64,000 nucleotides of DNA, taken from positions 453,227 through 517,226 of the forward strand of contig WELB01000055.1 in the NCBI GenBank assembly GCA_009602725.1. Direction: 5' to 3'. The stretch is from Spirogloea muscicola. Taxonomy: Eukaryota > Streptophyta > Zygnematophyceae > Spirogloeales > Spirogloeaceae. The notes below the pieces were generated by a model. It was not told the origin of the DNA and searched no databases. It worked only from the letters and a program-made list of their open reading frames with translations. The translations under genes were made by a program, and so were the position numbers. Below are positions 15,201 to 50,210 of the stretch, one piece after another (positions within the stretch are counted from its first letter, which is position 1; every line of letters begins with the position of its first letter).

Positions 15201-18200
15201 TCCTGCCATCTGGCTGATAACGTCTCCCATCATTCCACCCAGGTCGGTCAGGAGAGTCCCTAACATGTGCCCTGTTATCTGTCTGATATCGCCTGCCCTC
15301 ATTCCACCTAGATCAGTCCAGATGATCCCTAAAGCCTGGCTCCACAATGCGTCTGACCATCAAAGCTGCATTTATACCCTGCACAGCACGCCTCTGCTCT
15401 GCCATCTCTCTTTCCTTGTGAAGAAAAATGCGGCTGCTGATATTAAAGAATCGGCTGTAAAATGGCAGCCAGATGCATACAGGTGTTCATGACGTAGCCA
15501 AAGGCTAGGCAGACAGGGCGCCCTCAATACCCCCGTGTCAGCAGTAGGAAGTCAGATGAGCTGAGGGGAGGAAGAGCAACCCCGCTGCGCAGACCAGAGG
15601 CTGCTGCAAGGGCGCGACCAGCCCGGCGATGCAAAGCAATCGCCTGGACCGCTGTAGGCACATAGACAGACGCATTTGGTAGCAGGACACAAGACCCATA
15701 GGCACCGAGCCACCGGGAAAGGCTGCACCCTGTTCCCAGCGCCGCTGGTCAGCTTGAGAGGCCAGCAGCGAAAGTAACGAGGACCACCAACCCCCGTAAC
15801 ACCCATGGATGTCCATGGCCAGGGGGTAAAAGGTATCACCCGCCGGGTGGTCCTTGTACTTGCTCAAGTTCTTCTGTTCGGCCACCTTCACGGCATAGCC
15901 GGTCTCAGAAGTAATGGGGCCCTTCGTGCGGAAGCTGTCGGTTAGGACGACGTCCATGAGGAGCCGCTTGCCACCTCCCAGGGGGACGCCAACTAGATCG
16001 ACACGCCTCGTCCGAGGGACCCCGTTGCGGAGTTGGATGGGCATCACCCCGGTGCTCTCCAACGCCACTTGACATCCCGCCTCCTTGACGATGCCATACA
16101 TGGCAACACGTAGGAGGTTGTGGGAGCCCATGCGCTCACTGCCTCTGGCAGACCTGAGCATGTGGTCACCCATGAGCAATGCATCATGCTCAATTAGCCC
16201 ACATTCACACTTGGTCACCCCTGCCAAGCACAGGGACGGTAAGCCAAGGCGGCGGCGCATAGCATCGCAGCACGAAGCATTTTCCATCAGCAAGCCCGCA
16301 TGCAAAGGCAAAGCGCGGAGCCACTCAGACGCTCCCAGAGACGAAACAGATAGGAGCCGAGCCTGGCCTCGAGCATCCCCTTGGAGGAGACTCCGGAGAT
16401 GCTCCAGTGGTTGCTCGTCTGCAGCACATGAAAACCGCGATTGAGCCTTAACATCAGAAACGTCAGCCCCTCCAGCAAACCCAACAGGCTCATTCACCAG
16501 AGGCGGGTATGCGGCAAAGAGGTCCTGTTGGCATGCTTTGAGGATCACTTGGAAAGGCAGACTCCCCTGAACCACGTTACTGATGTGAGGCGCCAATACA
16601 CGTTGTTGCTCAAGGAGGAATCGTCCAGATATGGACGAAGCCACTTGAGCCCAGCAGCCAAGGTACGCTGGTCTGCATAAGCCGACCAAGGGGCGACAAC
16701 CAAGCCCACCGTGGCGTATGGGCGGCAGCGTACATTGCACCAGTGCTGCTGGAGACTGCTCTAGGAGTGGGTGAGCAATCAGATCAGCAAGGCATTGCTG
16801 AAGCTTGACATCAATGGATGCATAGATAGCATCCAAGCTGACCGATGGTGGGACCATACGCAAGAGGTAGCACGGCCGCTGTGCCACAGTCCTGGTCAAA
16901 ATGGCCACTGCCAACTGAGAGTCCCCGAGGCTGGGGAGCTCTGGCAGGACCTGCATGTATCCTTGGAGACGAGCAAGGACAGCACCCTCCGAGAAAGACG
17001 GGTCCCATAGTGGCACTCCCAAGATTCTTAAGCCGCCCTCTGGAGTCTGACAAGATGTCGGCAACGAGGGGAAGAGGGGAAGAGGGATGCCAATGGGGGA
17101 CCAGGCAGAGCACTTAGCCGGATTGACCCCAAGCCCGATAAGCTGGAGCTGGTGCTGAAGCGTGCCAAAAGCTCGCAGCACCTCCTCTGGGGGGCCGAGG
17201 AGCGTGGTATTATCCGCATAGCTCGGGAGGAGAACGCCAGGGTGAGCGCTCGCCGTGTTGCGCAAAGCACGGTGATGCGCCAGAGCGAAGAGGAAACCAC
17301 CCATTGGATCACCTTGGCGTGTCCCCGTCTTTGACTGCAGAACAGCCAAAGAAATCCCTGCCCCCCACAACAATGCAGATGGCGAGCCATACATGCAGCG
17401 GAAGTGAGGGAGGAGGGTGGGAAAGTACTGCCTTAGCTCCTCGGCAGTAACCTGCCGATCCACAGAGTTGAAGGCGTTCTGTACGTCCACACTCAAGGCC
17501 AGCCAATTGGGGTTGACATCCAGCGCCGCTCGTACCCCGTGCACCAGGGTCTCAGCGCCAGCACGCATCCCTGCCCAAACTGGTGGAAATGGAAGTGCGC
17601 CTGGGCATCGTCCTGGATCTGCATGATTAGCGTGCGCCCCACGAGGCGCGACAGAACCTCCCCCATCGAGATAGGACGCACTCCCCCGCTGTCCTTCTGC
17701 AAAGCAATGAGATTGCTTGTGAAGAGGACTGCGCCTACACGATGGGTGAGGTGTCCACGCGCAACATGTTGCGCGACCCTCAGCAGCAGATCGAAATCCT
17801 CCGAGTCGTCCTCCCCATACAGCTCCCACAAGTGCTCAAAGAGCATGCCCAATGGACCCCCGGCGACTGCCTTGCGGCTACTCACAATTGCCCGACGAAA
17901 GACAGCCGGGTCCAGGTTCACCGGTTGAGCAGGCCGTGAAGCTCTCCATCCATGTATCTAATCTTTGCGGGGCCGGAGGATGGAGCTGCTCGAGTGCGGC
18001 CAAGGTTGCCGCATCATGCGGTGCTGGTGTGGAGGGCTCCAAGGCTTGGGCAGCCCTGGCAAGGTCGCCGGCTCGGCCAGATCGGATGGCGCGTCGCTTG
18101 CCCGCCTCCTTGATATCCATTTCCGACGTGGTGGGCCAATAGTTGGCTTGCACAAGTTGCGCAGCCGCTTGGTGCTTTGCAAGTAGCAGCTGCCACTCCC

Positions 18201-18930
18201 CACCTTCAAAGAGGTGAAGGCACAGCAGCAGCTCCTTGCGACCTGCCCTCCCCTGCGGCAGGCGACCAAGCAAGAGTCGCGGAAACAACACAAACACAGC
18301 CCATGCAGCCTCATCCTCCCTGTCACGAGCCAGACGTCTCAGAAGTAATGGGGCCCTTCGTCCGGAAGCTGTCGGTTAGGACGACAGAAGGCGAGTCAGA
18401 ACAAACTCCACAGTCAAATCATCCCTGTTGGACATCGTTGTATCTCTGACAGCAGCATATTTGATGGCAGTCCCATCATGATGGCAAGAATCTGATGCTG
18501 GACTGGCACTTCTGCTCCAAAATCATGTAGCTGTAGTGCCAAGACCTCCACTCTAATTACAAACTCCTGTATACCTTCATCCTCTTCCTTCTTGCACTCT
18601 CTGAGCACGTACTAAGATAGTATACTCTATCGATGCCTCTATTCTCAAACTTGAATTTCAAGTGATCCCAAATCTGGCTGGCTAATGGCCATTTGACTAG
18701 ACCAACCATCTCTTCATCTGATATGTTGGCCATCAAGAGGGCTGATGCTGCCCTGTTCTCTCTTGAAGAAGGACGACACAACCCACGCACTGGATTAGAT
18801 TCGACTGCATCCCAGACTTCTTGGTATTGAAGCAATCTAGTCATCTTCCACTTCCAAACTGGCCAACTTGTCTCTCTTGACAGCTTGGGACTATGGACAG
18901 GAAGTGAGCCGCCCAGTGGGCCCATAACCT
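12210..18930 (-). mobile_element. Copia (Ty1-type) LTR retrotransposon fossil
   Basis: A broken Ty1/Copia element on the minus strand, interrupted by a LINE-D copy at about 15450-18386. In element order it has a gag region with a UBN2-like segment (18930-18390), a CCHC zinc knuckle CYYCRQPGHIINNC (about 15200), a protease region (about 15050), integrase with GPMQTSSLGGSRY and YRPQQNGVAERWNRSLME blocks (about 14600-13900), reverse transcriptase with MYGLKQAPRA and IHVDDLII (about 13600-13100), and RNase H with GFCDADWAGTLDDRKS and HIEYN (about 12750-12300). It carries several breaks, roughly ten, and is not functional. Protein blocks remain easy to read, so it is of moderate age. A possible LTR pair is listed separately. 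Confidence 0.9.
15450..18386 (-). mobile_element. LINE-D inserted into Copia
   Basis: A 5'-truncated RLE-type LINE on the minus strand. It starts within the region before the RT (VLFPRLLLGRLPQGRAG) and runs to a stop at 15524-15526 after S-S-D-F-L-L-L-T-R-G-Y. The RT has GTRQGDPMGGFLFALAHHRA and a YADN box where the active element should have Y/F-A-D-D, so a catalytic Asp is replaced by Asn. The endonuclease region has CECGL...H then RRVDLVG, LLMDVVLTD and a following Lys. Frameshifts near 17900, 17560 and 15600 divide the reading frame. The 3' tail ends in a GGCTG-CCATTTTA-CAGCC hairpin (15450-15467). The 5' junction carries about 50 bp copied from its own endonuclease region (18333-18385 matches 15900-15950). 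Confidence 0.85.
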
Positions 18931-19140
18931 GAAACGACTCTTACTCTGCCTGCCCTCGTCTTTCTTGATCTGCAACCTGAACCTGCTGTTCACGATCTGC
19001 GTTTTGTACCTGTCCTCCATGCCTTACAGCCACTTCCTGTCTTGAGGTAGGAGGACCGGCAGATCGTCCTCGCCTTGGTGCAAATGCGGACGCAAACGCA
19101 GACATGGTCACAAAGAGTTCAGAGTAACACAAAGGCTTGC
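18931..19140. other. Copia 5' flank, unassigned
   Basis: Lies upstream of the Copia gag start on the element strand. No primer-binding site of the usual tRNA-Met type is recognisable. Nothing else is seen. Confidence 0.3.
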
Positions 19141-19159
19141 CTGGTTACACACAGAGCCG

Positions 19160-19370: not shown

Positions 19371-19424
19371 ATTGTTCGGACCAATCGTGTCTTCTGCCGG
19401 AGCCTCCCTTATCTGACGCCCTGA

Positions 19425-20105
19425 GGTGGTGGGCGTCCACAATCTCCTACGGGACGCCCTGGCGGGCTTGATGCGCGACGCCGGCTACCGCGCCATCGTT
19501 GAAGTGAGCAATGTAATGCCCATCACCACGGATTCCCAGGGAGGCCATCACCGTCGCACCCTGGACATTGTGGGTGTACAACCTGGCGGAGGCCCACGAG
19601 CTTTGGTTGATGTGGTGGTGACTGAGGCATACAAGAGTTCCGCTTCCACACACATTGCTGGCCACGCAGTGGGAGGTGCTGAGCAGAAAAAGCTCCGACA
19701 CTACTCAGACTACCCCCGCAGTGACCACCTCCTCCCGGCCGCAATCGACACTTTCGGCTGCTTGGGTCCTCGCTTCCATACCCTACTCGAGAACATAGCG
19801 AGTCTGGGATATGCACGACGCGAGGATATGCTCCCAGCCCAGATGGGTATGCCGGCAGCCTATCTGTCATTTCTGCGACGTCGAGTGTCAACCTGTCTGC
19901 AACGAGCTCAGGCGTATGCTCTGCATCAGAAAGCTGGTCGAGCCTTAGCTGCTGGCACAAGAGCTAGTCAATTGCCGTCCGGTATTCGAGCGTCAGCTAG
20001 CGACCTCTATGTGCTGACTCGTGGTTACTGAGCGGGTCAGCTTAGCAGCAGGTGACGTACATTTGTCCAATGTGCTTGCCTTTGTACTTGGCCACACATG
20101 GCCTC
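19425..20105 (+). mobile_element. LINE-C endonuclease fragment with intact C-terminus
   Basis: A 5'-truncated LINE-C copy with an undisturbed 200-residue frame. It begins in GVHNLLRDALAGLMRDAGYR and continues with RRTLDIVGVQPGGGPRALVD, VVVTEAY, AEQKKLRHYSDYPRSDHLLP, AIDTFGCLGPRFHTLLENIA and CLQRAQAYALHQKAGRALAA. It ends SDLYVLTRGY at TGA 20029-20031. The D...D...K arrangement fits the restriction-like endonuclease of R2-type LINEs. The CCHC finger is missing because truncation lies just upstream. The tail (CAATGTGCTTGCCTTTGTAC, TTGGCCACACATGGCC) has a small GGCC hairpin. Confidence 0.85.
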
Positions 20106-20257
20106 CCCATCTCTTAATATACACGCATTATCTAGGGAGACTCTCATCGGCCTAGCCGACCCACTGACTCACCATATTTCTATATTCAACAAGTACCACC
20201 CCTTCCAGCTTCCGCGCAATAGCAGTAATCGATACTGCTACTTCACTATATGGAGCG

Positions 20258-21600: not shown

Positions 21601-21659
21601 GGTGATAATGTAGCGCTGTACCAAATAGGTAATCCGAAAGCTGAAGGAACTTGTATATG

Positions 21660-22800: not shown

Positions 22801-23438
22801 GGAGGACTCTCAGCATCGTCTCGTGTCTAGCTGTGTCATTTTTCTTGTAGGCAACTTCTTGGCTCTTTGGAAATTGTCCATTCTTTTCGGGCCGGCCTCT
22901 GCCGGCCCCTCTTCTCTATGGCCGCGCACTTTCTTCCTGGGAGGTAGCGGTACTTAAACTTTGTTATTTAGGCACTGCGCCCTGTATTCTTTCCCCGTCG
23001 CGTGTTCATTTCCTGCCGCCGCGCCGCCTCCCACTGCTGGCACCGCCCCGATCAACTTTTCTGGAGCCCTAGCTTCTTCAGGCACCCTCTTCTTGCCCCT
23101 TTGTAGCTGCTAAGAGTTTTTGGCCCCTTCGAACCTTTTGTCAATTCTTTTCGGGCTGGTTTTTCACAGCCCTTGCCCCCATTGGGAGTGCCACTTCTGG
23201 AGCAGCTTGCCTCCTCCAGGCATGGCCTGCCCAGGCAGTCACCTCCATTGAACCTCTCTCTACTCAGCTACATGGCTAACCCATGTGTAATCAATTGCCG
23301 AAAGCCCCAGCCTGTGAATCTGCCCTGATGGCACTCCGTTTGCTTGTCAACTCACACACATGCACCAAGGGATTGGTTCCGTCTGTGAATTCATAGGGGC
23401 CACGTCAGGGAATATAGTTAAACTCTTTAGCACTGGCG
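22801..23438 (+). other. Spacer with LINE tail hairpin
   Basis: Contains a plus-oriented LINE-type tail: CCCCTTCGAACC near 23130, then CGGGCTGGTTTTTCACAGCC at about 23148, then CATTGGGAGTGCCACTTCTG. The flank matches the arm of the mini-element at 42256. A second weaker GGGCCGGCCTCTGCCGGCCC lies at about 22888. No gene is recognised. Confidence 0.5.
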
Positions 23439-23557
23439 TGAAACGATCATACCAGGGCCACTACAGCGGATCCCATCAGAACTCCGAAGTTAAGCTCCCT
23501 TGGGCGAGAATAGTACTGGGATGGGTGACCTCCCGGGAAGTCCTCGTGTCGTATCCT
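23439..23557 (+). rRNA. 5S ribosomal RNA
   Basis: About 119 nt match the green-plant 5S rRNA: GATCATACCAGGGCCACTAC, GGATCCCATCAGAACTCCGA, AGTTAAGCTCCCTTGGGCGA, TACTGGGATGGGTGACCTCC and AAGTCCTCGTGTCGTATCC. The internal control regions are present. Terminal pairing at the 5' end is imperfect (TGAAACGATC against GTCGTATCC), so the copy may be slightly divergent. It is a single copy here, unlinked to other rRNA genes. Confidence 0.92.
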
Positions 23558-30940: not shown

Positions 30941-31884
30941 CCTTTGGGCCCTCTAGATTGCAAGTGATTATCTTACGGAGTACGCTTTGAGAAAGCGCTT
31001 TGGCCCCTCGTCAAGTCTTTGCGGGCTGGCTGTTCACAGCCCTCGCTTCCTTTGGGAGAGCCACTCTCTTGATTCTGATCTGCACTTGCTGACTAGGAAA
31101 AAAGTGGCTCTGTACAGGGAGCGGGGGCTGTGCAATGCCAGCCCAACGATGGGAAACCGTCTGCTCGGGCGCGGCTCAGGTCTGGCTCGGTCCAACCGTC
31201 AGCAGGCAACCCCTCAGCCCCCTCACTCTCACTCGTGGGTACACGAGTCCCCATTCAGTCGTGTTTTCCGTTCTAACTATACCCTTCGTGGTCTCCTCAC
31301 GAGCAGCGTATTGGCTTCCTTTGTCCCCTCTACTCGCATGCGCACTGCCTTCTCCTCTCCCTCTGGTCATTCCAACCTGCACTTGCAGAGCTCATTGAGA
31401 CCACTCGCGGAAGTCACGGAGGTTACTATCATCTTTTCTGCCGCTTCCAAATTTCTTAGACCTCGTGCACTGCTTTGGAATTGGCCTCTCACAGGCTTTG
31501 CCTTACAGTGAAGAGCTGTTCTTTCTACCTTTTTCTGTCGTGGAGTGCTCATGCTGTGATTCTGGGCTTGCTCCCGAGGCCCCGCCCCGGCCCGCAGACG
31601 ATGCAGAGCGGAGCAGGACTGCCACTGCACTGCCGCTCCGACCACTCCCGTCGCCGCATCCATTGCCGTCACGCTTGGCTAGCTGCGTGTCAGGTCGCCA
31701 TGTTGCAGCGTGTCCGTTCTTCTCCGGGCTGGCCTGTCACGATCGTTGTCCCTGCCTGGGAAGGCCTGTCCCCTTTACGCGAAACACACTGGAGCAGGCA
31801 TGGGCAATACCGACCTTCTTGTCGAGAACATCCATCGTGTTGTCCAAGGAGCTCCCTGCCCTGTCTGTCGTCCGGGTTTCTACC
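30941..31884 (+). repeat. LINE tails in unassigned sequence
   Basis: A plus LINE tail at about 30985-31060 has GCGCTTTGGCCCCTCGTCAA, then GGGCTGGCTGTTCACAGCCC and TTTGGGAGAGCCACTCTC. A weaker hairpin-like stretch lies near 31480 (GGCCTCTCACAGGC). Otherwise there is no recognisable gene. Confidence 0.5.
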
Positions 31885-32451: not shown

Positions 32452-32523
32452 GGTTCTGTAGTGTAGTGGTTAGCACTCTGGACTTTGAATCCAGCGACCT
32501 GGGTTCGACTCCCGGCAGAACCT
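32452..32523 (+). tRNA. tRNA-Gln (anticodon UUG)
   Basis: A complete 72-nt cloverleaf: acceptor GGTTCTG pairs with CAGAACC, the D-arm is GTGTAGTGGTTAGCAC, the anticodon arm CTGGA-CTTTGAA-TCCAG holds TTG, and the T-arm is CTGGGTTCGACTCCCGG. The sequence is close to plant tRNA-Gln(UUG). There is no intron and no encoded CCA. It is isolated among repeats and looks intact. Confidence 0.95.
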
Positions 32524-34440: not shown

Positions 34441-34930
34441 GACCGCTCACCGACCGCTCACACCCAGCTCAATGTGCCACCAAGGCTGGGTATGCGGTCG
34501 CCTGCGCTGCTCAGGCCAAAGAGCTGAAGTACGCAGACTATCCGCGGGAAGACGAGTTCTTCCCGTTGGCCATTGATACCCATGGGGCGCTGGGCGCTCG
34601 GTGGCTCGGTGGCTGCTCACCCAGCTCGCTCGCCACACCATCGCCCGTCGCTTCCATGGGGAGCCGGTCGACTTCCCTGCAGTCGGGTCGCTGGCGCAAG
34701 TGTATCGGATGCGCCTGGCCGTCTCGCTGCAGAGGTCTATGGCCCGGGCGTTGCACCTTCGTGCCGGCAGAGCCCTCGCTGCTGCCTCTGGCTCTGGCCA
34801 GGGGACCCACTTCAACGAGCCTAGCCTCTCCGACCTGCGGCTGCTTAGCAGAGGTTACTGAGTGATTCTCCTGTAGCTCTTTGGAGTTTGTCCATTCTTT
34901 TTAGGCTGGCTTCTGCCAGCCCCTCTCTTT
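34441..34930 (+). mobile_element. LINE-A C-terminal copy with intact end
   Basis: 5'-truncated LINE-A beginning in the late endonuclease region (AGYAVACAAQAKELKYADYP in pieces), with one frame disruption near the repeated GGTGGCTCGGTGGC at 34600. It continues through ARHTIARRFHGEPVDF and RMRLAVSLQRSMARALHLRA to SLSDLRLLSRGY and a TGA at 34859-34861. The tail has TAGGCTGGCTTCTGCCAGCC at about 34899. It supplies the normal LINE-A ending that the long copy has lost. Confidence 0.85.
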
Positions 34931-35640
34931 TTCTTTTCAGTGAGCCGCTTGGGACAGGCGAGCCACTGGGCGGTACCCAAGCCGCTGATGAAGTCAGGAC
35001 TTTGTCGTGCCACGGGGCGTCGACTGCCATTTCACGTCGAGAAGTCAGATTAGGCATTTGAGTGACGTGTGAGGATGACGTGGCAGGCAGAACGAACAAA
35101 CCAAGTGAAGAAGTTTGTAAAATGACAAATATAGAAATTACTTAATTCGTCTTGGAAAGGAATGCAGATGCAGAAAGTGGTAACAACTTGGTAAAGTCGA
35201 CGTGGTACAGCTGAGAAGCTGCCCCCACGTTTGTGAGTCCTGACGGCACTGGGTCAGCATCTATACAAGAATTGCAAATTTGTAGGTATGATCTTGAGCG
35301 GTGGTGTTAGACATTGAGTACGCCATTCACTGTTGCACTCGGATCACAAAGGCATCACGGCAGACTGATCTTCATGATGACAGATGCCGGATGACAGATG
35401 TGCCGAAGCTCACCGTCGTGTAGGATCTCACGTAGGATAGATGTTGGTAAGAACACGGTGTAGTACTCTGAATATGATTAGGATCACCACAGGATTGCAG
35501 GAGGCGGTCGACACCTTGTGAATTCTTACCAGCACCATTGCATGTCGATGGACCTGTAGAAGTACACGAGGCATCTTGACTTTTACTTTAAGATAAACAG
35601 TCGTTGATAGCAGTTGTCAGAGGCTTTGCTTTATATCTAG
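34931..35640. other. AT-richer unassigned sequence
   Basis: Composition drops in GC relative to neighbours. No protein or RNA gene is recognised. It may be the outer part of the Gypsy remnant that follows. Confidence 0.35.
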
Positions 35641-37439: not shown

Positions 37440-37660
37440 TTCCTTCAGAGGGCGATGGTTGTGAGAGGCCAGCCCAGGCAAAGGAATGAACTATGTACAA
37501 AGGGGCCAGAAAAAGCGCTAAAATCACACAGTGACTCAAGTGGCCACGAGGCACTCAATCACCCCCGTTGAGCAGCCGCAGGTCAGAAAAACTTTTCTCC
37601 AAGTAGCGGGTTCCCTGGCCAGAGCCAGAACGGAGTGCGGTCCTGGCCGCCTGCAGGTAC
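37440..37660 (-). mobile_element. LINE-A tail copy
   Basis: Minus-strand LINE-A end: RSGSGQGTRYLEKSFSDLRL followed by L-N-G-G-D and a stop at 37555, then a tail with the hairpin near 37466-37484 (GAGAGGCCAGCCC on plus). Compare SGSGQGTHFQEPSISDLRLL in the long copy. It is 5'-truncated about 30 codons before the stop. Confidence 0.75.
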
Positions 37661-38254
37661 TCATGGACGCTGCCCTCGGCGAAGAAGGCTGTATTACGCG
37701 CCGCATACGCTGACATGCGTTCTACCATGTCCAACACGGTGGTATTCGAGTACATCTTGACATTTCTTAACCATCTGACAGAGGTCGTAAATTCGATGAG
37801 CCCGAGGCAGCCGGGCCAGGTGGCCAGCCACGCTTCGAAGGTCGCGCGGCTGTCGTTCTCCAGGCCGTAGGTGAGGTCGTCCAACAGGGCGCCCATCGCT
37901 GCCCCGAAATCCTGCGACAGCTTTATCTGGTATAGAGACGGCAAGGCGAGCATGGTTGGGAGGGGGCCGCCGCTGTGCTCGTCGTCGTCATCGTCGTCGG
38001 ATTCCACCACCTCGGCAGTGCGGCGGCGGAGGGCGGCGCACGAAGATCGGCGGGGATTGGTGAGCGGGCCGGGGGCGCGGCGGCGCGGCGCAAGTGCCGG
38101 CGGAGGGTGGGGGGCGGGCTGCTGATCAGAAGTGCTGATCGAGCCCGGGGAGCGCGGTGCGCAACTGCCGGCGGAGGGGCGGAAGCTGACGAGATCGGGT
38201 GCGGCGTCGAGGAGACGATTCGATGGTGCAACTGTCGGCGGAGGGGCGGACCAA
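37661..38254 (-). other. Unidentified open frame between LINE copies
   Basis: A minus-strand frame runs open from the LINE-C tail (38313) through this segment into the LINE-A end (37555). The middle part is in neither LINE: a proline/arginine-rich stretch, an acidic run (ESDDDDDDEHSGG) and about 110 residues including LPSLYQIKLSQDFGAAMGAL and TFEAWLATWPGCLGLIEFTT. No family is recognised. It may be a host exon, a transduced piece or chance; GC-rich composition favours long chance frames. The GCCGGCGGAGGG motif near 38096 and 38168 recurs in altered form at 38236. Confidence 0.35.
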
Positions 38255-40015
38255 AAATTTCGTGTATTTGAAACAAACGTAGGCCAAATGGCTAAGTACA
38301 AAGGCAAACACATCTAAAGATCTACATATCCTACAGCAGATTGACCCTCTCAGTAACCACGGGTCAAAATATAAAGGTCGCTAATCGATGCATGAATACT
38401 AGACGTCAGATACGAAGCCCTTCTGCCACCAACTAGAGCTCGCCCAGCTTTCTGGTGCAGGGCATAAGCCTGAGCACGCTGCAAACAGGCCGAAACTCGA
38501 CGTCGCAAGAACGACAGATGTGCAGCTGGCAAGCCCAACTCAGCCGGAAACACATCTGCACGTCGTGTGTAGCCTAGATTGGCAATGTTTTGAAGAAGAG
38601 TCTGGAAACGAGGACCCAGACAGCCAAAGATATCAATTGCTGCTTGCAGGAGCTGATCGCATTGGGGTAAATCTGAGTAGTGCTGCATCTTTCTTTGTTC
38701 TGCACCGCCCACTACGTGACCAGCGATGTGTGTCGATGCTGGACCTTTATATGCCTCCGTGACAACAACGTCGACCAGGGCCCGTGGTCCTCCACCAGGT
38801 TGCACGCCCACAATGTCAAGCGTGCGGCGATGATGACGTCCCTGGGCGTCCGTGGTAATAGGCATGATATTGTTGACTTCCACGTCCGCACAGTAGCCGG
38901 GCGTCACGCATCAAGCCCGCCAGGGCATCGCGAATGAGGTTGTGGATGCCCACCACTTCTGGTTCAATGGGGCATCTCAGCATGTGAATGGCGAGCTCAG
39001 CAACCTCTGCAAGGAAGCCGCACTCGCACTAACGCACACCAACCAGGCAGGCCAGGGAGGCCGAAAAAGAGTTGAAGTGACGTCCGAAAGGCCTCGAAGC
39101 TGATGCTGAAGGCGTTGGCGATGGCGTGAGAGGAGATCCAGTCGGTGGCACCAGGTGTGGCTAGAGAAATAGGTCTTGCCAAGCTCTTTGGATTGTTCTG
39201 AATTCCTGGCAGCCTCCTCAACCTTCTACGGCGCTCATCTTCCACTGCCGTAATCAGTGTGGATTGTGCCCCTCTATCAGAAGCTTGGGCAATGGCGGAG
39301 AATGGCGTGAGTATGGGTTGGAGAAAGGGAAAAGAGCCGATGGCTGAGTCGCGGATGCTCCTCAGATCCGCTTGGAAAGAAAGGGACCTTCCTCCACATT
39401 GCGTACAGGGTTGTGGAGGCAAGGGAAGCGCATGGGGAGCAGAGAGGCGATCTGGTGCCAGCAGCCCAGGAAGGCTGCTTGCGCCGTCTGCTCCAACGAC
39501 CGGCAGCCAAGGCCGCTCATGCGAGTGGGGAGGGAGGCCTGAAGGGAAGCTGAAGCTGAGGGGAAAGATGAAGAATGTAGAAGGGATGCCAGGGACTGCA
39601 GAAGGGAGGCATCATATTCCTTGTAGAGGTCCACCACCATGCCCAATGGGGCGACTGTCCATTGCAGATAGCAAGCCCGTTGGCCGATGCAGCGGGTGAG
39701 GATGGCCAACGCCAGCTGTGTGACCCCAGGAGGGGAAGGGAAGGGAGGAGGGCAAGGTGTCTATGAAGGCGTTCCCTCAAGTCCACCGCCACGTGAGCTG
39801 GTGTGCCGAAGGTGACCTTGAGGATGGCCATCCCATTGAAAGGGGTCAGGCAGCCGTAGGGGAGCTGAAGGTTGGCGGGGAGACCGCGTGGGGACCAAAC
39901 CACACTCTTGGACGGGCAAATCCGCAGGCCCATCAGGTCCAATTCGCGAACGAGCAAGGGGTAAGCCGACATGACTTCAGCTGGAGGTCCAGCTGGAGGT
40001 CGGCGGGGGAGTAAC
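38255..40015 (-). mobile_element. LINE-C, RT thumb to tail
   Basis: The longest LINE-C copy, minus strand. It is truncated just downstream of the RT catalytic box (GPPAEVMSAYPLLVRELDLM at about 39980). It continues through AILTRCIGQRACYL, the linker (ITAVEDERRRRLRRLPGIQN), a CCHC finger (CECGFLAEVAELAIHMLRC at 38970) and the endonuclease (HHRRTLDIVGVQPGGGPRAL, DVVVTEAYKGPASTHIAGHV, AEQRKMQHYSDLPQCDQLLQ). It ends SISDLYILTRGY at a stop at 38350 and the LINE-C tail to about 38255. A few frameshifts lie in the RT and linker. The last 185 codons are open. Confidence 0.85.
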
Positions 40016-40079: not shown

Positions 40080-40385
40080 ACTGGTGGCTGTGAGAGGCCA
40101 GCCCAAAGCAAGCGCGGCCAGAATAACTGGTGGCCCAAACGAAAGGACAAAGTCTGAAGGAGCCGGATGGAGCAGAAAGCAAGGTTCTAAGTCTTAAGAC
40201 AACAGCAAGGGGACTCTCAGTAACCTCTAGTCAGGAGATAAAAAGGGGAAAGCACGGCCACATTAACTGGTGGCTGGGAGAGGCCAGCCCAGAGGAATGC
40301 AAAAGGTCTGAAGGAGCCGGAGTGCTAAGGACTAAGACATCAGCAAGGGGACTCTCAGTAACTTCTAGTCAAAAGATGCAAGTCG
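40080..40385 (-). mobile_element. Two tandem LINE-E tails
   Basis: Two head-to-tail insertions, about 40080-40240 and 40250-40385. Each begins on the minus strand at the last codons L-L-T-R-G-Y (or the decayed equivalent) plus TGA, and ends in the tail hairpin (GGTGGCTG.GAGAGGCCAGCC as read on plus) and the GCGCGGCCA.ATTAACTGG-type end. They hold almost no coding sequence. Confidence 0.75.
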
Positions 40386-42250: not shown

Positions 42251-42255
42251 GACCT

Positions 42256-42397
42256 TAGGCCCCTCCGTCATTTGGCCCCTTCGAACCTTTGTAAACAATT
42301 TTCTTTAGGCTCCTTCGTCAATGGGGGCAAGGGCTGTGAAAAGCCAGCCCGAAAATGCTTTTAAAGGTTCGAAGGGGCCAAATGACGGAGGGGCCTA
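42256..42397. mobile_element. Mini-element with perfect 35-bp terminal inverted repeats
   Basis: TAGGCCCCTCCGTCATTTGG and the next 15 bases (42256-42290) are the exact reverse complement of 42363-42397. The 72-bp centre holds a minus-oriented LINE tail hairpin (GGGCTGTGAAAAGCCAGCCC). Outer flanks show no obvious duplication longer than 2-3 bp. There is no coding capacity. It could be a MITE-like unit or a product of inverted LINE-tail joining. Confidence 0.85.
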
Positions 42398-42404
42398 GAG
42401 CGCT

Positions 42405-42540
42405 ATGTCAGACTAGAGGTTACTGAGCGTCCCCTTATGCTGATGTCTTACTTCTTAGCACCCCGGCTCCTTCAGACCTTGTCCATTCCTTTGGGCTGGC
42501 CTCTCCCAGCCACCAGTTAATGTGGCCGCGCTTGCTTTAT
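42405..42540 (+). mobile_element. LINE-E tail copy
   Basis: Plus-oriented tail starting at the last codons (GACTAGAGGTTACTGAGCGT) and running through GGCTCCTTCAGACCTTGTCC, GGGCTGGCCTCTCCCAGCC and CAGTTAATGTGGCCGCGCTT. It is the inverse of the two tails at 40.1-40.4 kb and shows the sense-strand order clearly. Confidence 0.8.
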
Positions 42541-42699: not shown

Positions 42700-42780
42700 T
42701 TCTGAGGGAGGGAGAGAGAGGGAGAGAGGTGAGGGCGAGGGAGGGAGGGGGAGGGAAGGGGGCGGAGGGGAAGGGAGAAG
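42700..42780. repeat. Polypurine tract 1
   Basis: A GA-rich low-complexity run, almost all purine on plus (GAGGGAGGGAGAGAGAGGGA and similar). Confidence 0.85.
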
Positions 42781-42985
42781 AAAGCGCGGCCAGATTGACT
42801 GGTGGCTGGGAAAGGCCAGCCCAAAGGAATGGACAAGGTCCGAAGGAGCCGGAGTGCGAAGGACTAGGACTTAGACATCTGCCAGGGAACGCTCAGTAAT
42901 TTCTAGTCAGGAGATGCAAGTCTGAGTAGCTAGCCAGCGGAAAGACGTCGCCCTGACGGACACCGGAAGCCGCCGCCAAAGCTCG
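42780..42985 (-). mobile_element. LINE end with SDLHLLTRNY
   Basis: Minus-strand LINE end (ALAAASGVRQGDVFPLASYS, then D-L-H-L-L-T-R-N-Y and stop at about 42895) with its tail and hairpin at 42801-42825. It sits between two polypurine tracts. Confidence 0.75.
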
Positions 42986-43135: not shown

Positions 43136-43149
43136 TGTGGGTTTAAAGA

Positions 43150-43800
43150 GATGGGGAGGCCATGTGTGGCCAAGTACAAAGGCAAGCACATTGACAAATG
43201 AACGTCACCTTCTGCTAAGCTGACCCGCTCAGTAATCATGAGTCAGCACATAGAGGTCGCTGACTGATGCTCGAATACAGGACGGTAATCGACAAGCTCT
43301 TGAATTACCAGCCAAGGCTCGACCAGCTTTCTGATGCAACGCATGAGCCCGAGCTCGCTGCAGACAAGCTGACACTCGACGTCGCAAAATTGACAGATAG
43401 GCTGCCGTCTGGGCTGGAAGCATATCCTCGCGTCGTGCATATCCCAGACTCGCTATATTCTCAAGTAGGGTATGGAAGCGAGGACCCAAGCAGCCGAAAG
43501 TGTCGATTGCGGCCAGGAGAAGGTGGTCGCTGCGGGGGTAGTCAGAGTATTGTCGGAGCTTTCTCTGCTCAGCACCTCCCACTCCGTGGCCAGCAATGTG
43601 TGTGGAAGCGGAACTCTTGTATGCCTCGGTCACCACCACATCCTCCAAGGCTTGTGGGCCTCCGCCAGGTTGTACACCCACAATGTCCAAGGTGCGATGG
43701 TGATGGCGACCCTGGAATCCGTGGTGATGGGCATTACATTGCTTACTTCCACAATGGCGCGGTAGCCGGCGTCGCGCATCAAGCCCGCCAGGGCGTTTAG
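43150..43800 (-). mobile_element. LINE-C endonuclease fragment
   Basis: Minus-strand LINE-C: LNALAGLMRDAGYRAIVEVS at 43800, then LDIVGVQPGGGPQALEDVVV, AEQRKLRQYSDYPRSDHLLL and AIDTFGCLGPRFHTLLENIA, ending SVSDLYVLTHDY with stop at 43229, then the LINE-C tail to about 43150. The frame shifts once near 43690. Closest to the copy at 19.4 kb. Confidence 0.85.
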
Positions 43801-45064
43801 AGCATGTGCATTGGCGCCATGGTGCCTACTCAGGCAATGAGACGTCAAATCCATGTGCCCAACACCTCGGATGCCGACCCTGGCTCCCTCCAGTGAAAAC
43901 ATTAGGGAGGTGCAAGTGGCTTTCAGAAATTACAAGATTCAGAAGTGCAACCAACTGCAATGTTGCAGCAGGACACCATTGAAAGCGGGAGCCAAGATTC
44001 ATGTAGAGTCGGGCTGCTGCCCTGCTTAAAGTCGCCTCTGGTGTGCCTGGTAGATCCGGCAAACGTCACCATAGCCACTGCCCATACTGAGACCCCACGG
44101 GTGCCCTTCACCCTAGGCTGGACGAGGCAAGCAGAACGGATGGAGCTTGGCAGAGACGAGGAAATGAAAAGACAGACGCCTGAAGATGAACGGATTTGAA
44201 GTCTCGTAAAAGTTTAGCCTTGGCTGCCGCTTCTTGATTACTGGCGTGAGAACTCGTGCGACTGTTGGCTTAATTTCACTCAGTGGCCTGCCGTTTCTGC
44301 GCTGAGCGTCAGCACTTCCAGGGTCGGGGCGTCCTCATTTTTTTGTCCAAGGGCTGGCATTCTCACAGCCACTGCCCCTTACTGGGACAAGCCTTCTTTT
44401 CCTGCCGCGAATATGTCCAACTTGCAGGTGCTGATTGTTGGTCATCCAATGGGCTATTAACAGTAGCACTGCTCGTGCTCAGTGTTGCTCTATGTCAAGT
44501 TTGACTCCATGTACTTCAGTGTGCTCACTTTTAACTGGCAAAGCCCACCTCCAGCCGTGCTTTCGTCCTGCTTCTTAGCCCCTCCTAGCCCAGGGCATCG
44601 CCTTGCGTAGACCCTTTGTCCGGACTTCTATTGCCTTATGCGTGAGCAATGCATTGGCTCGGCTAGGTCTTCATTAATTGGTGTGCTCCACGCTTCTCTC
44701 GTAGGGGCCTACTCATCGACCAGTTATCCACTCGCTTGGGCTTGCCTTTCACAAAAACAAAAGAAAGTGCTTGCCCATTGAGGATAGGGGCTGGAAAAGC
44801 CAACCCAAATAAGAATGAACAGAGTACGAGAAGGGGGCCAGGGGAAGCGCTAAGAAAAACAAGCACACAGAAAAAGCTCTCCTAAATGGGGCGACGGCTG
44901 TTGAAGGCCAGGTACAATCGCATGTACAGCCAACACCTTCTCTTCAGCGAACTATACCACTAAAGGCTGGCCCCTCACGGCCATCTCTTCTGGAAGATCT
45001 TCTTTCTTGTCCATCCTTGTTCTGGGCTGGCCTTCACAGCCGTCGCCCCCTTGGGAAGGACTTC
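43801..45064. other. Unassigned sequence with LINE tails
   Basis: No gene is recognised. LINE-type hairpins lie near 44352 (plus), 44788 (minus, with AAAGAAAGTGCTTGCCCATT before it), 44964 (plus) and 45024 (plus). Bases 43900-44330 show nothing. Confidence 0.45.
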
Positions 45065-45790
45065 CTTTCTTCTCTCGTTGAGAAGAGAAAGGAGTGCGCA
45101 TGCAATGGGAGGGAGGCCAATTCAAGCCAGTAGTGTTTAGGCAAAAGCTAGTGCAGAAGTAGAGCTACACAAAGCGAAGCCCTCTGCTAAAAAGAAAGCG
45201 GCTGCTGATATGAAAGAGGGTCCCCTGCTAAGGGGACCCACTTCCAGGAGCCCAGCATCTCTGATCTGCGGCTGCTTAGCAGGGGTTACTGAGTGTCGCG
45301 TAGCTGCTTTATTTCTATTTCTTAGCGCTTCCCCTGGCCCCCTTCTCGTACTCTGTTCATTCTTTTTCGGGCTGGTTGTTCCAGCCCCTATTCTCAATGG
45401 GCGAGCACTTTCTCTGCTAAGGGGGCTTAAGGCAACAGTGCGGAAGCCAGCTGGGGGACTTCCAGTACTCACAGAGTGAACACATGCCAAAGCGACAGGC
45501 TAATTTTAGGAGCCGGAGCACCGCCTCTGAAGCCAGTGGCCTGGCTTTGTGCGCACTCTGTACGCTGATGAATGGCTGAAGCTCGGCAGCGCTGCAAAAG
45601 TAAGCGATGAAAGTACTTGGCTACGAGGTAGTGGCCGTTGAGGAAGCAAGCCCTTGTGATGCTATGGGAGAGAAGGCGCGCGGAGAGCATAAATTGAAAG
45701 GGAGGCCAATTCAAGCCAAAATATTGTTCAGTGTAGTCCAGTGGAAAATAAGCATTGGGTGGAAGAGGTGGCTCTCCCCATGGGGGCAAG
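45065..45790 (-). mobile_element. LINE-B tails and C-terminal piece, head-to-tail
   Basis: Minus-strand LINE-B tail at 45790-45650, then a second LINE-B C-terminal piece (LLLQRCRASAIHQRTECAQS, GFRGGAPAPKISLS at about 45600-45480), and its tail at 45180-45065 (GGGAGGCCAATTCAAGCCAG on plus). A plus-oriented LINE-A end (45230-45450) lies between the second piece and its tail. Confidence 0.65.
45230..45450 (+). mobile_element. LINE-A tail with normal ending
   Basis: Plus-oriented: AGGGGACCCACTTCCAGGAG then SISDLRLLSRGY and TGA, with a tail including CGGGCTGGTTGTTCCAGCCC (45368-45387) and CAATGGGCGAGCACTTTCTC. An 8-bp perfect hairpin (GGGTCCCC...GGGGACCC, 45218-45239) straddles its 5' junction. 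Confidence 0.85.
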
Positions 45791-45799
45791 TGCTCTGAA

Positions 45800-48700
45800 G
45801 GGTAGATCTGGTCGCGGGCGCCGCCGCCGCCGCCGCCACCCCTCTTAAACCCCTGGCCGCCGCCGGCGCCGTCGCCGGCGACGCCCGCCATGGGGTCCGC
45901 GGCGGCGTGCAGCTCTCGGCGTTGTCCTCGGAGCCGGAGTCTCGAACTTCCCCCGGCCAAGTTCGCGTGGGCGCAGCGGTTTCTCACCCTCGCCGCCTTC
46001 CATGCCGCCACCACGCCACCTCCGCCGCAGCCCCCCCTTCTTCCGCCGTCGCCACCCTCGCCTGCGAAGCCCCCGCGCGCGCCGTGCCCCACCTGCCCGC
46101 GGGATTTCGCAACTCCCCATGGTGTCTCTGTGCATCGGCGACACTGCAAGGGGCATGCCAGCCCCACCGGCCCGCCGCCCGCAGCGGCCGTCGCGGCTTG
46201 CAGCCCCATCGTCCAGGCCCTGGCATCCACTCGGGCGGAGCATTCCACGGAGCGTTCCACGGAGGATTCCACGGAGGCCACTACTATCGTCTCCCGCCCG
46301 AGAGAAGTGTCGGGCACCAACGTTATCGCCTCCACCCCTGAGAAGCGAGGGGACCCACGAGGTGACCACGCTCCTCCATCCTCAGGGTACCATGTCCCAT
46401 GTGCTCGGCCCTGACGCCCCTGAGTGTGCTTCTCCGGCGACAGTGGTGCGGCAGCCGCTACCGCCCGCCGAGTCGTCGTCACCACAGCCGCCGACGTCCC
46501 CACCGCCCCCACCTCCTCCGACGCCGCCTTCCCGATCATCCGCCATCCCGCCTCTCGAGCCGCCCAGCCTTCCACAGTCGGCGCCATCGACGCCCCCCCC
46601 ATCTCCGCCGCCTCCACCCCCGCCGAGCGAGCCGGCTCCACCGCCGTCGCCCTCTCCTCCCTCGCCCGACCCGCCTCGGTGCCAGCTTTGCCAGAGGACC
46701 TTCACCACGCGGTCCGGCCGGTCCAACCACCAGCGAACTTGCGCGGGCAACATCAACCGTGCGGAGCAGGCGCGGAGCGCAGCGGCGGCGGGTGGTCGTC
46801 GGGGCAGACCAGGCAGGCCTCCCGCGCCGTCCCCGCCCACGCCTCACCACTGGCAGTGGCTGGCCGACCTTGACCTGGCCGCAGTTCACCGCCAGGCGGC
46901 CCTGCCGCTCCTACGCCATGTTCCACGCTGGGCACGCCCACACCTCCGCCGCGCGCTCCGCCCGGTGACACAGCGGATCGTCGCGGACCACAGAGACGAG
47001 GCGGCGTGGAAGCTGTTCATCCTCTTCCCCCGGCTGTTGCTCGGGCGGGTCTCTCTCGACAGCCGCAAGCAGGGCCAGCAGCCCCTCTTGGAACGCGTCC
47101 AGTTGTTCGAGAGCGGGCACTGGGAGGAGCTCCTGGCGAGGCACGACGCAGCCGTGGCGGCATCCGAAGCCAACCGTGGTGGTCGAGGGGCAACACACGA
47201 CCGGGCCGCCAGCGTCCGCAGGGCTCTTCGCTACGGCCACGCGGGCGAGCTCTCCCGGGCTGTGCAGGCCCTGGACGATGCGATGCTGGCGCCGACCAAT
47301 GCGGCAACCCGGGCGGCTCTGGACTCCCTCCACCCCCCGTCCAGCTCCCCCCTGCCACCGTGGTTGGCCGCGTTCGCCCCGCCGGAGGAGGTGGTCTTGG
47401 ACGCCGACGCCCTCATGAAGGCTCTCCAGACCAGCCGTCGCGCAGCCGCCGGCGGCCCCTCCCGCATGCTAACTGAGCACCTGCGGGAGATCTTCCTTGA
47501 GGGTGAGGCAACAGACTTCAACGCGCTGCTGCAGATCTGCCAGCATATGGCCCGCGACAATGTGCCGGCCAGCATCCGCGGCGTACTGTGCACCAGCACG
47601 CTGCTCGCCCTCGACAAGCCGAGCGGGGGAGTCAGGCCCATTGCCATTGGGGAGGTCCTGTACCGCCTGGTGAGCCGCGTACTCTGGCAGCAGCATGCGG
47701 GGCCGGCGCAGGTGCACATGGCGCCACACCAGTACGGCGCGGGGCTGCGGAGTGGGGGCGAGGCCGTCGTCCATGGGGTTCGTGCGACCTTGGACCAGCA
47801 CCCGGGGTGGCTGGTGCTGGCCGTTGACGTGAAGAATGCCTTCAACACTGTGGAGCGCGCCAGCATTGCGGAGGAGCTCCGGGCATCCTTCCCCTCCCTG
47901 GTACCCTTTTTCCGCTTGGGGTACGGTCAGCCCAGCGACCTCCTCTGGCGGACAGGGGGAGATCAAGTGGAGGTCCTGCAGTCCCAAGCGGGCACGCGGC
48001 AAGGAGACCCCCTCGCCGGCTTCTACTTTGCGCTCGCTCACCACCGGGCCCTGCAGGCAACCGCCGCGGCACACCCAGGAGTCCTACTCCCCTCCTTCGC
48101 GGACGACACCACCATCGTCGGCCCTCCGGAAGACGTGGCGGCGGCCTTCATCACCCTTGAGCTACAGCTGGCCACCCTCGGCCTGTCCACCCGGGCGTCA
48201 AAGTGCGCGGCCTGGTCTCCCAGCGGCCTCCCACCCAACCTGACGCTGCCCACCGGCTGCCAAACTCCAGCAGATGGCTTCACCCTGCTGGGGGTCCCCA
48301 TCGGCGCGCCGTCCTTCGTGGAGGGGCAGCTGCGAGCCCGCCTGGCGGAGCACCTTCAGCCTGCGGCCCGGCTTCCCGAGCTGGACGACATGCAACTATC
48401 GCTGGCCATGTTGACCAGGGCCATTGGGCAGCGGCCCCAGTACCTGACGCGGGCCACTCCGCCGTCCCCTGGGGCGTTGGCAGCGTATGCAGATTTCGAT
48501 GCAAGCATGGTGGCGAGCTTGGCGGCCCTGGTCCGCCACCAGGGCTTCCTCCAGTCGCCAGCAGCTATCCACCAGGCGGCGCTACCCCTCAGCCACGGTG
48601 GTCTCGGCCTGCGCCCGCTCGCTCGTTCTTGCCGGGCGGCATACCTCGGCAGCTGGGCGCAGACTGCCGCCTCCGTGGCCCAGCGCTTCTTGGTCCACGG

Positions 48701-49930
48701 CCGGCGGGCACTGGAGCAGGCGGTGGCGGAGGTCGACATGGGCCCGCTGCCGTTCCAGGTGTCGCTTCGCTCCGCCCACCAGGAGCTGCTCGCGGCGCAC
48801 CCGGACCTGGCCGGCCAGGCGGTATCCTTTGCGCACCTCGCGCACACCGCCGACTTGCGCGTCCAAGCGCGCATCGCGGCAGTGGTCGACAAGGCCGCCT
48901 ACACCACCGCCGTGCTCCAGCTCCCCGAGGCCGACTTGCGCGGGCGCGCGAGACTCCACTCGGCCTCTTCCCCGGGGGCTGCGGCGTGGCTCCAGGCCCT
49001 CCCCCTCTACGACGCCCTCACCCTCCCGGACGAGGTATTCCGAAGTGCCGTCCACCGGCTCCTGGGCCTACTGCCGCCATGTCTCCAGGGTGTGCGTCAA
49101 TGTGAGTGTGGCGAGCGCGGGACCGAGCCTGGAGAGCTGGCTGCTCATGTTCTGCGCTGTTCCCACGGCGGAGAGCGGACAGCGGCCCACGACCGCCTCC
49201 GCGACGTAATGCATGGCATCCTGTTGGAGGCTGGTTTCTCCGTGGCAGCAGAGCACTCCGGAATCATGCCAATCCAGCACAGGGCCGACGGTCTCCATGC
49301 CAGGCGTGTAGACCTGGTGGCCACCCGACAGGCCGGCGGGCCACGTCTTCTCCTGGACGTGGTGACTACTGATGCCTATGACCGCTCACACCCAGCCAAA
49401 TGTGCCACCACGGCTGGGTATGCGGTCGCCTGCGCTGCTCGGGCCAAAGAGCTGAAGTACGCGGATCATCCGCGGGAAGACGAGTTCTTCCCGTTGGCCA
49501 TCGACACACATGGGGCGCTGGGCGCTCGGTGGCTCGAGCTGCTCACCCAGCTCGCCCGCCACACCATCGCCCGGCGCTTCCATGGGGAGCCGGTTGACTT
49601 CCCTGCAGCCGGGTCGCTGGCGCAAGTGTATCGAATGCGCCTGGCCGTCTCGCTGCAGAGGTCCATGGCCCGGGCGCTGCACCTTCGTGCCGGCAGAGCC
49701 CTCGCTGCTGCCTCTGGCTCTGGCCAGGGGACCCACTTCCAGGAGCCCAGCATCTCTGATCTGCGGCTGCTTAGCAGAGATAAGGGGAAGGGGCAAGGAA
49801 GGGGCGAGCCCTTCTTTCCGTACTAGGTTCACTCGTTTTTTGGGCTGGCTTTTCCAGCCCCGATCCTCAATGGGCGCGCCCTTCTCTTCTTCGGGCTGGC
49901 TTTTCACAGCCCTTGCCCCCATTGGGGGAG
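45800..49930 (+). mobile_element. Near-complete LINE-A (RLE-type non-LTR retrotransposon)
   Basis: The longest LINE in the window. It has a GC-rich leader from about 45800, one long coding region (next entry) and a 3' tail with two hairpins: GGGCTGGCTTTTCCAGCCCC at 49839 and CGGGCTGGCTTTTCACAGCC at 49887. The domain order (zinc fingers, RT, CCHC, restriction-like endonuclease) is that of the R2/NeSL type. The exact 5' end and target duplication cannot be fixed because both flanks are other LINE tails. Partial copies are at 29.7, 30.8, 34.4, 37.5 and 45.2 kb. Confidence 0.88.
45890..49826 (+). CDS. LINE-A polyprotein: zinc fingers, RT, endonuclease
   Basis: The main frame (ATG 46002 to 49826, 1274 aa) holds a C2HC finger CQLCQRTFTTRSGRSNHQRT-C (about residue 227), RT with LDKPSGGVRPIAIGEVLYRL (about 536), AVDVKNAFNTVERASIAEEL, GTRQGDPLAGFYFALAHHRA and PSFADDTTIVG (about 699), a CECGERG...HVLRCSHGG finger (about 1033), and an endonuclease with RRVDLVATR, LLLDVVTTDAYD and AKELKYADH (about 1101-1160). 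An upstream frame from ATG 45890 carries another finger, CPTCPRDFATPHGVSVHRRH-C, so one frameshift around 46350-46400 probably separates the true N-terminus from the rest. A proline-rich segment lies between the fingers. The end is abnormal: SISDLRLLSR runs on into DKGKGQGRGEPFFPY because the usual G-Y-stop and early tail are deleted. All visible RT and endonuclease residues are kept. Confidence 0.9.
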
Positions 49931-49934
49931 CCAC

Positions 49935-50210
49935 TTCTTCTTCGGAAGGAAATATTTCGAGTATTTGAAACAAACGAAGGCCAAATGGCCAAGTACAGAA
50001 GAAAAGAAAGTGCTCGCCCATTTAGGATAGGGCTGGAAAAGCCAGCCCAAAAAAGAATGAACCGAGCACGAGAAGGGGGGCCAGGGGAAGCGCTAAGAAA
50101 AACACGCACACAAAGAATCAAAGCAGCTACGAATCACTCGGTAAGAAATGGCATGAAAGCGCGGCCAGATTGACTGGTGGCTGGGAAAGGCCAGCCCAAA
50201 GTTCGGGGGC
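49935..50210. repeat. Cluster of LINE tails
   Basis: LINE-C-type tail fragment at 49945-50000 (AAATATTTCGAGTATTTGAA, then GAAGGCCAAATGGCCAAGTA on plus), a minus LINE-A-type tail at 50005-50110 (GGGCTGGAAAAGCCAGCCC at 50029), and a minus LINE-E-type tail at 50158-50205 (GCGCGGCCAGATTGACTGGT, GGCTGGGAAAGGCCAGCCC). At least three tail types are packed in under 300 bp. Confidence 0.7.

Follow-up and report, generated by a model that had tools for sequence, protein, structure and literature searches.

A short inverted repeat, GGCTG-loop-CAGCC, recurs throughout a 64,000-nucleotide stretch of the streptophyte alga Spirogloea muscicola (contig WELB01000055.1, positions 453,227 to 517,226; hereafter the window). 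This hairpin is most probably the conserved core of a 3′-terminal recognition element in a superfamily of R2-like long interspersed nuclear elements (LINEs), which have a single open reading frame (ORF) and, judged by motif, a restriction-like endonuclease (RLE). It lies downstream of the LINE stop codon and close to the 3′ end of the element, is shared between divergent families and is better conserved than its flanks, and the LINE proteins are homologous to the R2 reverse transcriptase (RT). An earlier note on the window had proposed such a shared RNA structure; the observation is real and biologically meaningful, that reading is largely right, and the tag is of a known kind. LINE 3′ recognition tags have already been described from other LINEs, and the members found here add to that class.

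The repeat was counted with two strict patterns, GGGCTG(N3-14)CAGCCC and GGCTGG(N3-14)CCAGCC, and with a permissive one, GGCTG(N3-12)CAGCC. Each strict pattern has 9 sites in the window, with means of 0.28 and 0.24, respectively, in 100 dinucleotide shuffles, and combined they mark 15 distinct places. The permissive pattern gives 23 distinct sites, compared with a mean of 3.10 in 100 such shuffles. The "about 25" hairpins reported earlier are therefore real, except that two permissive sites (9391-9410 and 28823-28843) are without LINE-tail context by eye and look like chance, which leaves 21 tail hairpins. Across the 153.1-Mb genome, the strict hairpin (gap 4-10) has 17,100 matches, against 69 for a reversed-pattern control; this amounts to about 7 per 64 kb, so the window is typical of the genome as a whole. 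The genome also has 68 matches to chlorophyll a/b-binding proteins, one of which resembles 83 distinct chloroplast chlorophyll a-b binding sequences in PDB at E 1e-50 or better; this gene content indicates a photosynthetic eukaryote that belongs to the green lineage or has a green plastid. Hairpins were seen in both orientations, as the note had said and as expected, because copies insert either way; since the sequence is nearly palindromic, the strand has to be read from the loop and flanks. Recognisable LINE coding sequence lies within 200 nt upstream, in sense, of 6 of the 23 hairpins (two of these six adjoin the LINE at 45849-49826), which is expected if most copies are short 5′-truncated tails. 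Tails without coding sequence do keep the hairpin, but this carries no weight as evidence of function, because 5′ truncation keeps any sequence near the 3′ end.

Two LINE proteins of the window, P0001 (1325 aa, ORF 45849-49826) and P0002 (ORF 15538-17835), have RVT_1 matches, and a genome search found at least 36 stretches matching P0001 and at least 67 matching P0002. The 3′ ends of 20 members of the P0001 family and 13 of the P0002 group (10 B-type, 3 D-type) were fetched. The hairpin is present in 20/20 P0001-type ends, 79-116 nt after the stop, with one mismatch in L055 and a U-G pair in L049 and L056. It is usually followed by about 30 nt ending in CTTTCTTCT or similar, after which the copies diverge; L045 and L054 are interrupted shortly after the hairpin. 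Among B-type ends, GGCTG-N-CAGCC lies 56 nt from the stop in 9 of 10, and the other (L066) is broken upstream of the hairpin. None of the three D-type ends has GGCTG/CAGCC; all three carry a GGCY..GGCC hairpin, GGCTTGAATTGGCC, 86-87 nt from the stop. C1 LINEs have the hairpin GGCCACACATGGCC 60-61 nt from the stop, and C2 LINEs a GGCCATTTGGCC hairpin. A hairpin common to divergent LINEs, as proposed, is thus found in five families (F1, A4, E, F3 and B). It is not universal: in an addition to the earlier account, C and D carry another class, GGCY...GGCC, in the corresponding part of the tail.

The association with stop codons was measured over 78 loci plus the window, where tblastn gave 123 non-redundant LINE ORF ends, and hairpins were accepted up to 160 nt downstream. 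An exact sense GGCTG/CAGCC hairpin accompanies 65 of the 123 ends and 7.2% of random sense windows (2.2% when these are drawn from the 64-kb window alone), in agreement with the suggested association. By family, it was found at 32/41 F1, 13/22 A4, 8/12 B, 2/4 A2, 8/20 "D-labelled" and 2/24 C ends; the labels follow the best C-terminal query, and for six of the eight "D" hairpins the distance from the stop is 74 nt, a spacing shared with F3. Some misses arise because the exact pattern skips the U-G stem variant GGGTTGG. The GGCC hairpin stands at 21/24 C-type ends, compared with 3.4% of random sense windows. Counts from these loci favour F1 and F3, because 29 of them (L010-L038; of 73 or 78, depending on the analysis) had been selected for their resemblance to positions 49780-50260 of the window.

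End motifs, which may include a few chance matches, located the 3′ ends of 131 F1/A4, 46 F3, 15 E, 15 B and 15 D tails; C1 and C2 ends are less clear-cut. The hairpin lies 27-31 nt from the 3′ end in F1, A4, E, F3 and B, measured in a single representative copy per family. No poly(A) was found at the 131 F1/A4 ends, and more than about 9 nt out the flanking sequence is mixed. Ends of this kind are what LINEs should leave if their RT begins at a particular 3′ structure. TTCT occurs within 10 nt of 55% of the 131 F1/A4 end motifs, where it is partly the element's own end. The lack of poly(A) and the similar distance from hairpin to end across five families would also suit an element for RNA 3′-end formation or stability, like the histone stem-loop, with the RT copying whatever end results. 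This alternative is unlikely. Rfam reports no family at gathering score on the hairpins, and the histone stem-loop has a different stem and loop, with its RNA end about 5 nt downstream, against about 30 nt here. Furthermore, the RT of R2, the nearest studied relative, needs a small two-stem core of the 3′ untranslated region (UTR) (PMC10499050).

The LINE proteins have a single ORF with an N-terminal zinc finger. Pairwise identity among six full-length proteins is 39-76%, with 43-50% between F1 and B and 56% between the D-type protein and P0002; C-type LINEs (P0005) have 150 scored matches in the genome, and E-type ORFs are known here as fragments only. A C2H2 finger (C278, C281, H294, C298) is invariant in the six proteins, as are the RT motifs, a C-X-C..H..C knuckle and R113..D116..D131 with K161 and Y165. 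The R..D..D motif is read as that of a putative RLE-type PD-(D/E)XK nuclease. Pfam gives weak zinc finger matches in three of five proteins and no apurinic endonuclease (APE)/exonuclease family in any of the five. In phmmer and profile searches, made against PDB sequences only, the six-protein profile finds R2 proteins best (E 1.5e-10) and LINE-1 ORF2 next (1e-4). The proteins combine a zinc finger, an R2-like RT and, by motif, a putative restriction-like endonuclease. These LINEs do not share the 28S rRNA gene target of R2, as their 3′ flanks vary from copy to copy. In the protein tree, F1 joins A4, and D joins B at 82/87 support. Tail exchange between families (the B tail is F-like and the D tail C-like) was considered but is not claimed: an approximately unbiased test does not reject a tree arranged according to tail (p 0.14), which is compatible with tails simply passed on together with their LINEs. 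An RVT_1 search for further LINE families returned 150 scored matches, mostly of about 160 residues, which were taken by length only for RTs of the long terminal repeat (LTR) type and set aside.

Between F1, A4, E, F3 and B, hairpin identity is 0.70-0.90, compared with 0.50-0.54 for shuffled sequence, and in 9 of 10 family pairs the hairpin is the best conserved part of the 3′UTR, above both flanks. Similarity in the 60 nt upstream rarely exceeds chance (exceptions are F1-E, p 0.01, and A4-B, p 0.04); in this comparison the upstream piece of F3 was taken from a copy that is truncated, and that of E starts in a neighbouring tail. The E and B hairpins agree at 17 of 18 bases, with their upstream 60 nt at chance (0.57 vs 0.55). 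The 5′ arm and loop start (GGCTGGC) are conserved too. Stems that are kept while loops vary, as first described, are borne out for the near-invariant stem, but the loops vary less than was stated.

To describe the fold, alignments of about 62 terminal nt were used, and the consensus energy was below that of column shuffles in 8/8 families, with 0-4 of 200 shuffles reaching it. The folding z values are -5.1 for F1, -7.4 for A4, -3.5 for E, -2.3 for F3, -2.6 for B, -3.4 for C1, -3.7 for C2 and -3.7 for D. In the F1 and A4 consensus, an outer helix, formed by UUGUCCAU upstream with AUGGGCGA downstream, encloses the hairpin and a pyrimidine-rich internal loop, a feature beyond the earlier note. 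Against flank shuffles that keep the hairpin, p is 0.014 for A4 and a marginal 0.068 for F1, so the outer helix is claimed only for A4 and, tentatively, F1. As a general feature it was rejected, since only A4 is significant, and no claim is made for the similar pairings noticed by eye in B, C and D.

Covariation was studied in a MAFFT alignment of 39 F1, A4 and E copies, 37 of them distinct. Aligned pair cells are complementary in 89.5%, compared with 38-59% in slid controls. The inner stem is invariant or changed on one side (C-G to U-G), and three pairs of the outer helix have one two-sided-change cell each. Five covariation measures were reached by 13-20 of 500 shuffles, a count that is not a probability. 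In a hand register, with E shifted one base along by the analyst's choice and 2 of 12 F1 rows not located, outer pair 3 is C-G in F1 (10/10) and A4 (17/18), whereas E has A-U (10/10), a single compensatory exchange at the family level; outer pair 6 does not pair in any of the 10 E copies. An A-type pattern with three free pairs has 1,214 genome matches; among the 100 listed and judged by eye, there are two common stem types, GGGCTGG and GGGTTGG (C-G to U-G), and no compensated double change. Covariation overall is weak. An inner stem without two-sided change would suit an ancestral palindromic sequence that has no RNA role and became common through 5′ truncation, and retention in truncated tails needs no function. 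This explanation is nevertheless very unlikely, given flanks that in 9 of 10 family comparisons are both less conserved than the hairpin, the different yet complementary arms of C and D at the same place, and a common U-G variant that preserves the pair. That the hairpin acts as DNA, as a cruciform or hotspot that marks targets for other LINE copies, is extremely unlikely. Tails do lie near each other and are often clustered, but the 3′ flanks of the 131 F1/A4 ends are mixed and insertions occur in LINE coding sequence or 3′UTR away from the hairpin (e.g. L006, L041).

Several results weigh against a conserved recognition hairpin. The stem covariation proposed as a check largely fails for GGCTG/CAGCC, with no two-sided inner-stem change in the 37 distinct F1, A4 and E copies. 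Among the 100 genome matches listed, 15 have other stem changes, of which 11 disrupt a pair and 4 preserve it as G-U; such scattered, mostly breaking changes are expected of dead copies. Conservation above chance (p <0.05) extends to the 25 nt downstream of the hairpin in 5 of 10 family pairs, and between F1 and B this stretch even slightly exceeds the hairpin in identity (0.72 vs 0.70). Single-sequence energies of B, C1, C2 and D are borderline against whole shuffles (p 0.06-0.11), and the gain from the outer helix is not significant in E, F3, B, C1 and C2 (p 0.295-0.689) or in D (0.075). Pfam gives no match to the C-terminal nuclease in five LINE proteins, the RLE being read by motif only. 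Finally, no partner short interspersed nuclear element (SINE) was found: 34 loci contain no tRNA genes, and no wider SINE search was made.

For a 3′ recognition element, the mechanism may be pictured as follows. The LINE RNA ends in the stop codon and 50-120 nt of poorly conserved 3′UTR, with a TGTYCAT-like block before the hairpin in F-type families. The hairpin, GGCUG...CAGCC in F1, A4, E, F3 and B and GGCY...GGCC in C and D, is followed by about 30 nt and then a pyrimidine-rich end (...CUUUCUUCU in F1), and the DNA copies have no poly(A). In A4 and F1, the upstream block could pair with AUGGGCGA, placing the outer helix round the pyrimidine-rich internal loop. Folded in vivo, the hairpin structure would most likely be bound by the element's own RT, by analogy with R2, ZfL2 and plant L1 tails, and target-primed reverse transcription would start from the RNA 3′ end. 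Frequent early stops would leave thousands of short tails, inserting into one another. The terminal CUUCU, with TTCT near the ends, may help pairing with the nicked target, which is speculation.

Recognition of this kind has been described in other LINEs. In Bombyx mori R2, reverse transcription starts only on RNA with its 3′UTR, of which a 43-nt two-stem core suffices, and the core stems differ among R2 elements (PMC10499050). Like R2, the elements here are RLE-type LINEs (by motif) with a short 3′UTR structure, built of stems and single-stranded linkers, that has equivalents with different stems; R2, however, inserts in 28S genes, and its core is drawn from distant parts of a 248-nt UTR (PMC10499050). 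Here a compact, roughly 60-nt terminal module is found at scattered sites, with nearly the same hairpin across several families within a single genome.

The L2-clade ZfL2 elements have another type of endonuclease. UnaL2, ZfL2-1 and ZfL2-2 resemble the present LINEs in having a single stem-loop in the 3′ tail, which there is bound by their own protein; in ZfL2 proteins a conserved region binds the stem and a variable region the loop, and membership of the L2 clade sets ZfL2 apart from the LINEs here (PMC4176376). In the monocot L1 lineage ME1 and in maize and sorghum SINEs, the last 45 nt are conserved and form a hairpin among divergent LINEs (PMC3747384). The ME1 hairpin has a conserved CGAG on its 3′ side, and the same letters occur here (ATGGGCGAGC), which may be chance; ME1 is of the L1 clade with compensatory stem changes and a conserved loop, whereas the inner stem here is near-invariant (PMC3747384). 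RandI (Dualen), L1 and RTEX are also green-algal LINEs, and some share tails with Chlamydomonas SINEs; RandI elements end in repeats such as (ATT)n, unlike those here (PMC3747384). Stringent LINEs have known partner SINEs, whereas none was found here with tRNA genes sought in 34 loci; a SINE origin of the tails was rejected as there was no tRNA in these loci. Dualen/RandI is presumably the LINE group with both an APE and a PD-(D/E)XK nuclease. A LINE group that encodes both nucleases is described in PMC3636483; no APE family was found in five LINE proteins here. Open-licence PMC papers yielded nothing on a GGCTG/CAGCC hairpin among the top results, and nothing on RLE-type non-LTR elements in green algae or Chlamydomonas.

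The LINE at 45849-49826 is a special case. Its sister copies in the genome have the stop and then their own tail, with GGGCTGGTTGTTCCAGCCC 79 nt further. The window copy diverges from all matching sisters near 49779, so that its last residues and 3′UTR differ; 31 of the 35 other P0001-matching stretches end at residue 1308-1311, four end earlier and none beyond, and the 20 fetched sisters continue to the stop and their own tail. In the window the ORF continues beyond 49779 into a nest of other tails: F1-type at 49842, E-type at 49893 (cut off at the hairpin), and then three antisense pieces, one C2-like, one F1-type at 50030 and one F3-type at 50179. The tails next to the 49826 stop are thus nested ones of foreign origin, and the LINE's own tail is missing. 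A sense hairpin downstream of the LINE stop, as first described, thus stands for the family (20/20 P0001-type ends) but is misleading for this copy. The features of this region are:

45849..49826 (+), LINE ORF of F1 type, 1325 aa, with C2H2 finger, RT, CCHC and RLE-like C-terminus
49842..49860 (+), F1-type tail with hairpin GGGCTGGCTTTTCCAGCCC, not derived from the upstream ORF
49893..49912 (+), hairpin GGGCTGGCTTTTCACAGCCC of an E-type tail cut off at the hairpin
50030..50048 (-), F1-type tail hairpin, antisense
50179..50196 (-), F3-type tail hairpin, antisense, with F1 stop-region-like sequence close behind

F3-type tails repeatedly abut, on its 5′ side, the stop region of another LINE, TTAGCAGRGGTTACTGAG, and the bases at the junction vary. 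Such composites occur at window 50150-50210 (-) and in L010, L011, L012, L013, L015 and L017. The stop region lies within 22 nt in 4 of 46 F3 end motifs, and six F3 rows show the composite with 30-nt flanks, a rate biased by the selection of loci, which were taken for their resemblance to a composite of this type. The composites may reflect a recurrent insertion site or template jumping.

Other LINE ends and tails with the GGCTG/CAGCC hairpin in the window are:

45218..45419 (+), F1-type LINE end: C-terminus, stop, 3′UTR, hairpin 45369-45387 and 3′ end
34452..34950 (+), F-type LINE end: C-terminus, stop and hairpin 34904-34921
15415..17835 (-), B-type LINE (P0002): ORF, stop at about 15527, hairpin GGCTGCCATTTTACAGCC at 15453-15470 and 3′ end at about 15415
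42776..42976 (-), F3-type LINE end: C-terminus, stop, hairpin 42804-42821, CCAGTCAATCTGG and 3′ end
40244..40310 (-), F3-type tail, hairpin 40272-40289
40086..40103 (-), hairpin of an F3-like tail
42473..42539 (+), F3-type tail, hairpin 42494-42511
718..779 (-), F3-type tail, hairpin 741-758
23137..23202 (+), E-type tail, hairpin 23153-23172
42331..42350 (-), hairpin of an E-type tail
684..702 (+), hairpin of an E-like tail
31023..31042 (+), hairpin of an E-like tail
31125..31144 (-), hairpin of an E-like tail
275..292 (+), tail hairpin, diverged E-like
482..499, tail hairpin, minus strand by the loop rule, with flanks that fit plus better
44352..44370 (+), E-like tail hairpin
45025..45041 (+), diverged tail hairpin
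44759..44820 (-), F1-type tail, stem with a U-G pair (GGGTTGGCTTTTCCAGCCC), not caught by the exact pattern

The other hairpin class is represented by C- and D-type pieces:

19417..20133 (+), C1-type LINE end: C-terminus of a 204-aa ORF, stop, hairpin GGCCACACATGGCC at 20090-20103 and 3′ end
43137..43796 (-), second C1-type LINE end, hairpin GGCCACACATGGCC at about 43158-43171
38248..38595 (-), C2-type LINE end, GCCATTTGGCC hairpin
45659..45738 (-), D-type LINE tail, GGCTTGAATTGGCC hairpin class
Further D-type tails, 3′ ends near 11186 (-), 33126 (-) and 62266 (+)

Other observations concern the composition of the window. An open frame at 37555-38313 (-) runs from a C2-type LINE tail into a P0001-like LINE C-terminus and is a chimera of nested LINE pieces, and an N run at about 28849-29706 (858 N in the window) lies within a partial P0001-type LINE. 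A match to RVT_2, presumably the RT family of Copia-type elements, was found at 12473-13156 (-) with E 1.4e-8. Rfam matches to 5S rRNA, at 23439-23557 (+), and to tRNA, at 32452-32523 (+), lie among LINE tails, and neither adjoins a hairpin. A 135-bp tandem repeat of four copies with 95% matches, at 61569-62124, stands inside the open frame 60955-62127.

The hairpin might further serve as a public 3′ tag, a less probable idea that still deserves mention, in which the RTs of several competing LINE families recognise nearly the same structure of 18-20 nt and share one tail pool, with the junctions and outer helix giving specificity. If so, families could copy one another's RNAs, and the thousands of tails would form one pool. 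The 3′ ends described here are compact (about 60 nt), phylogenetically layered and numerous, with more than 17,000 strict hairpins, and belong to R2-like LINEs outside animals. This set of tails could be used to test models of RNA choice by R2-like reverse transcriptases, and if the minimal tag is one hairpin with a short tail, it would provide a simple substrate for target-primed reverse transcription.

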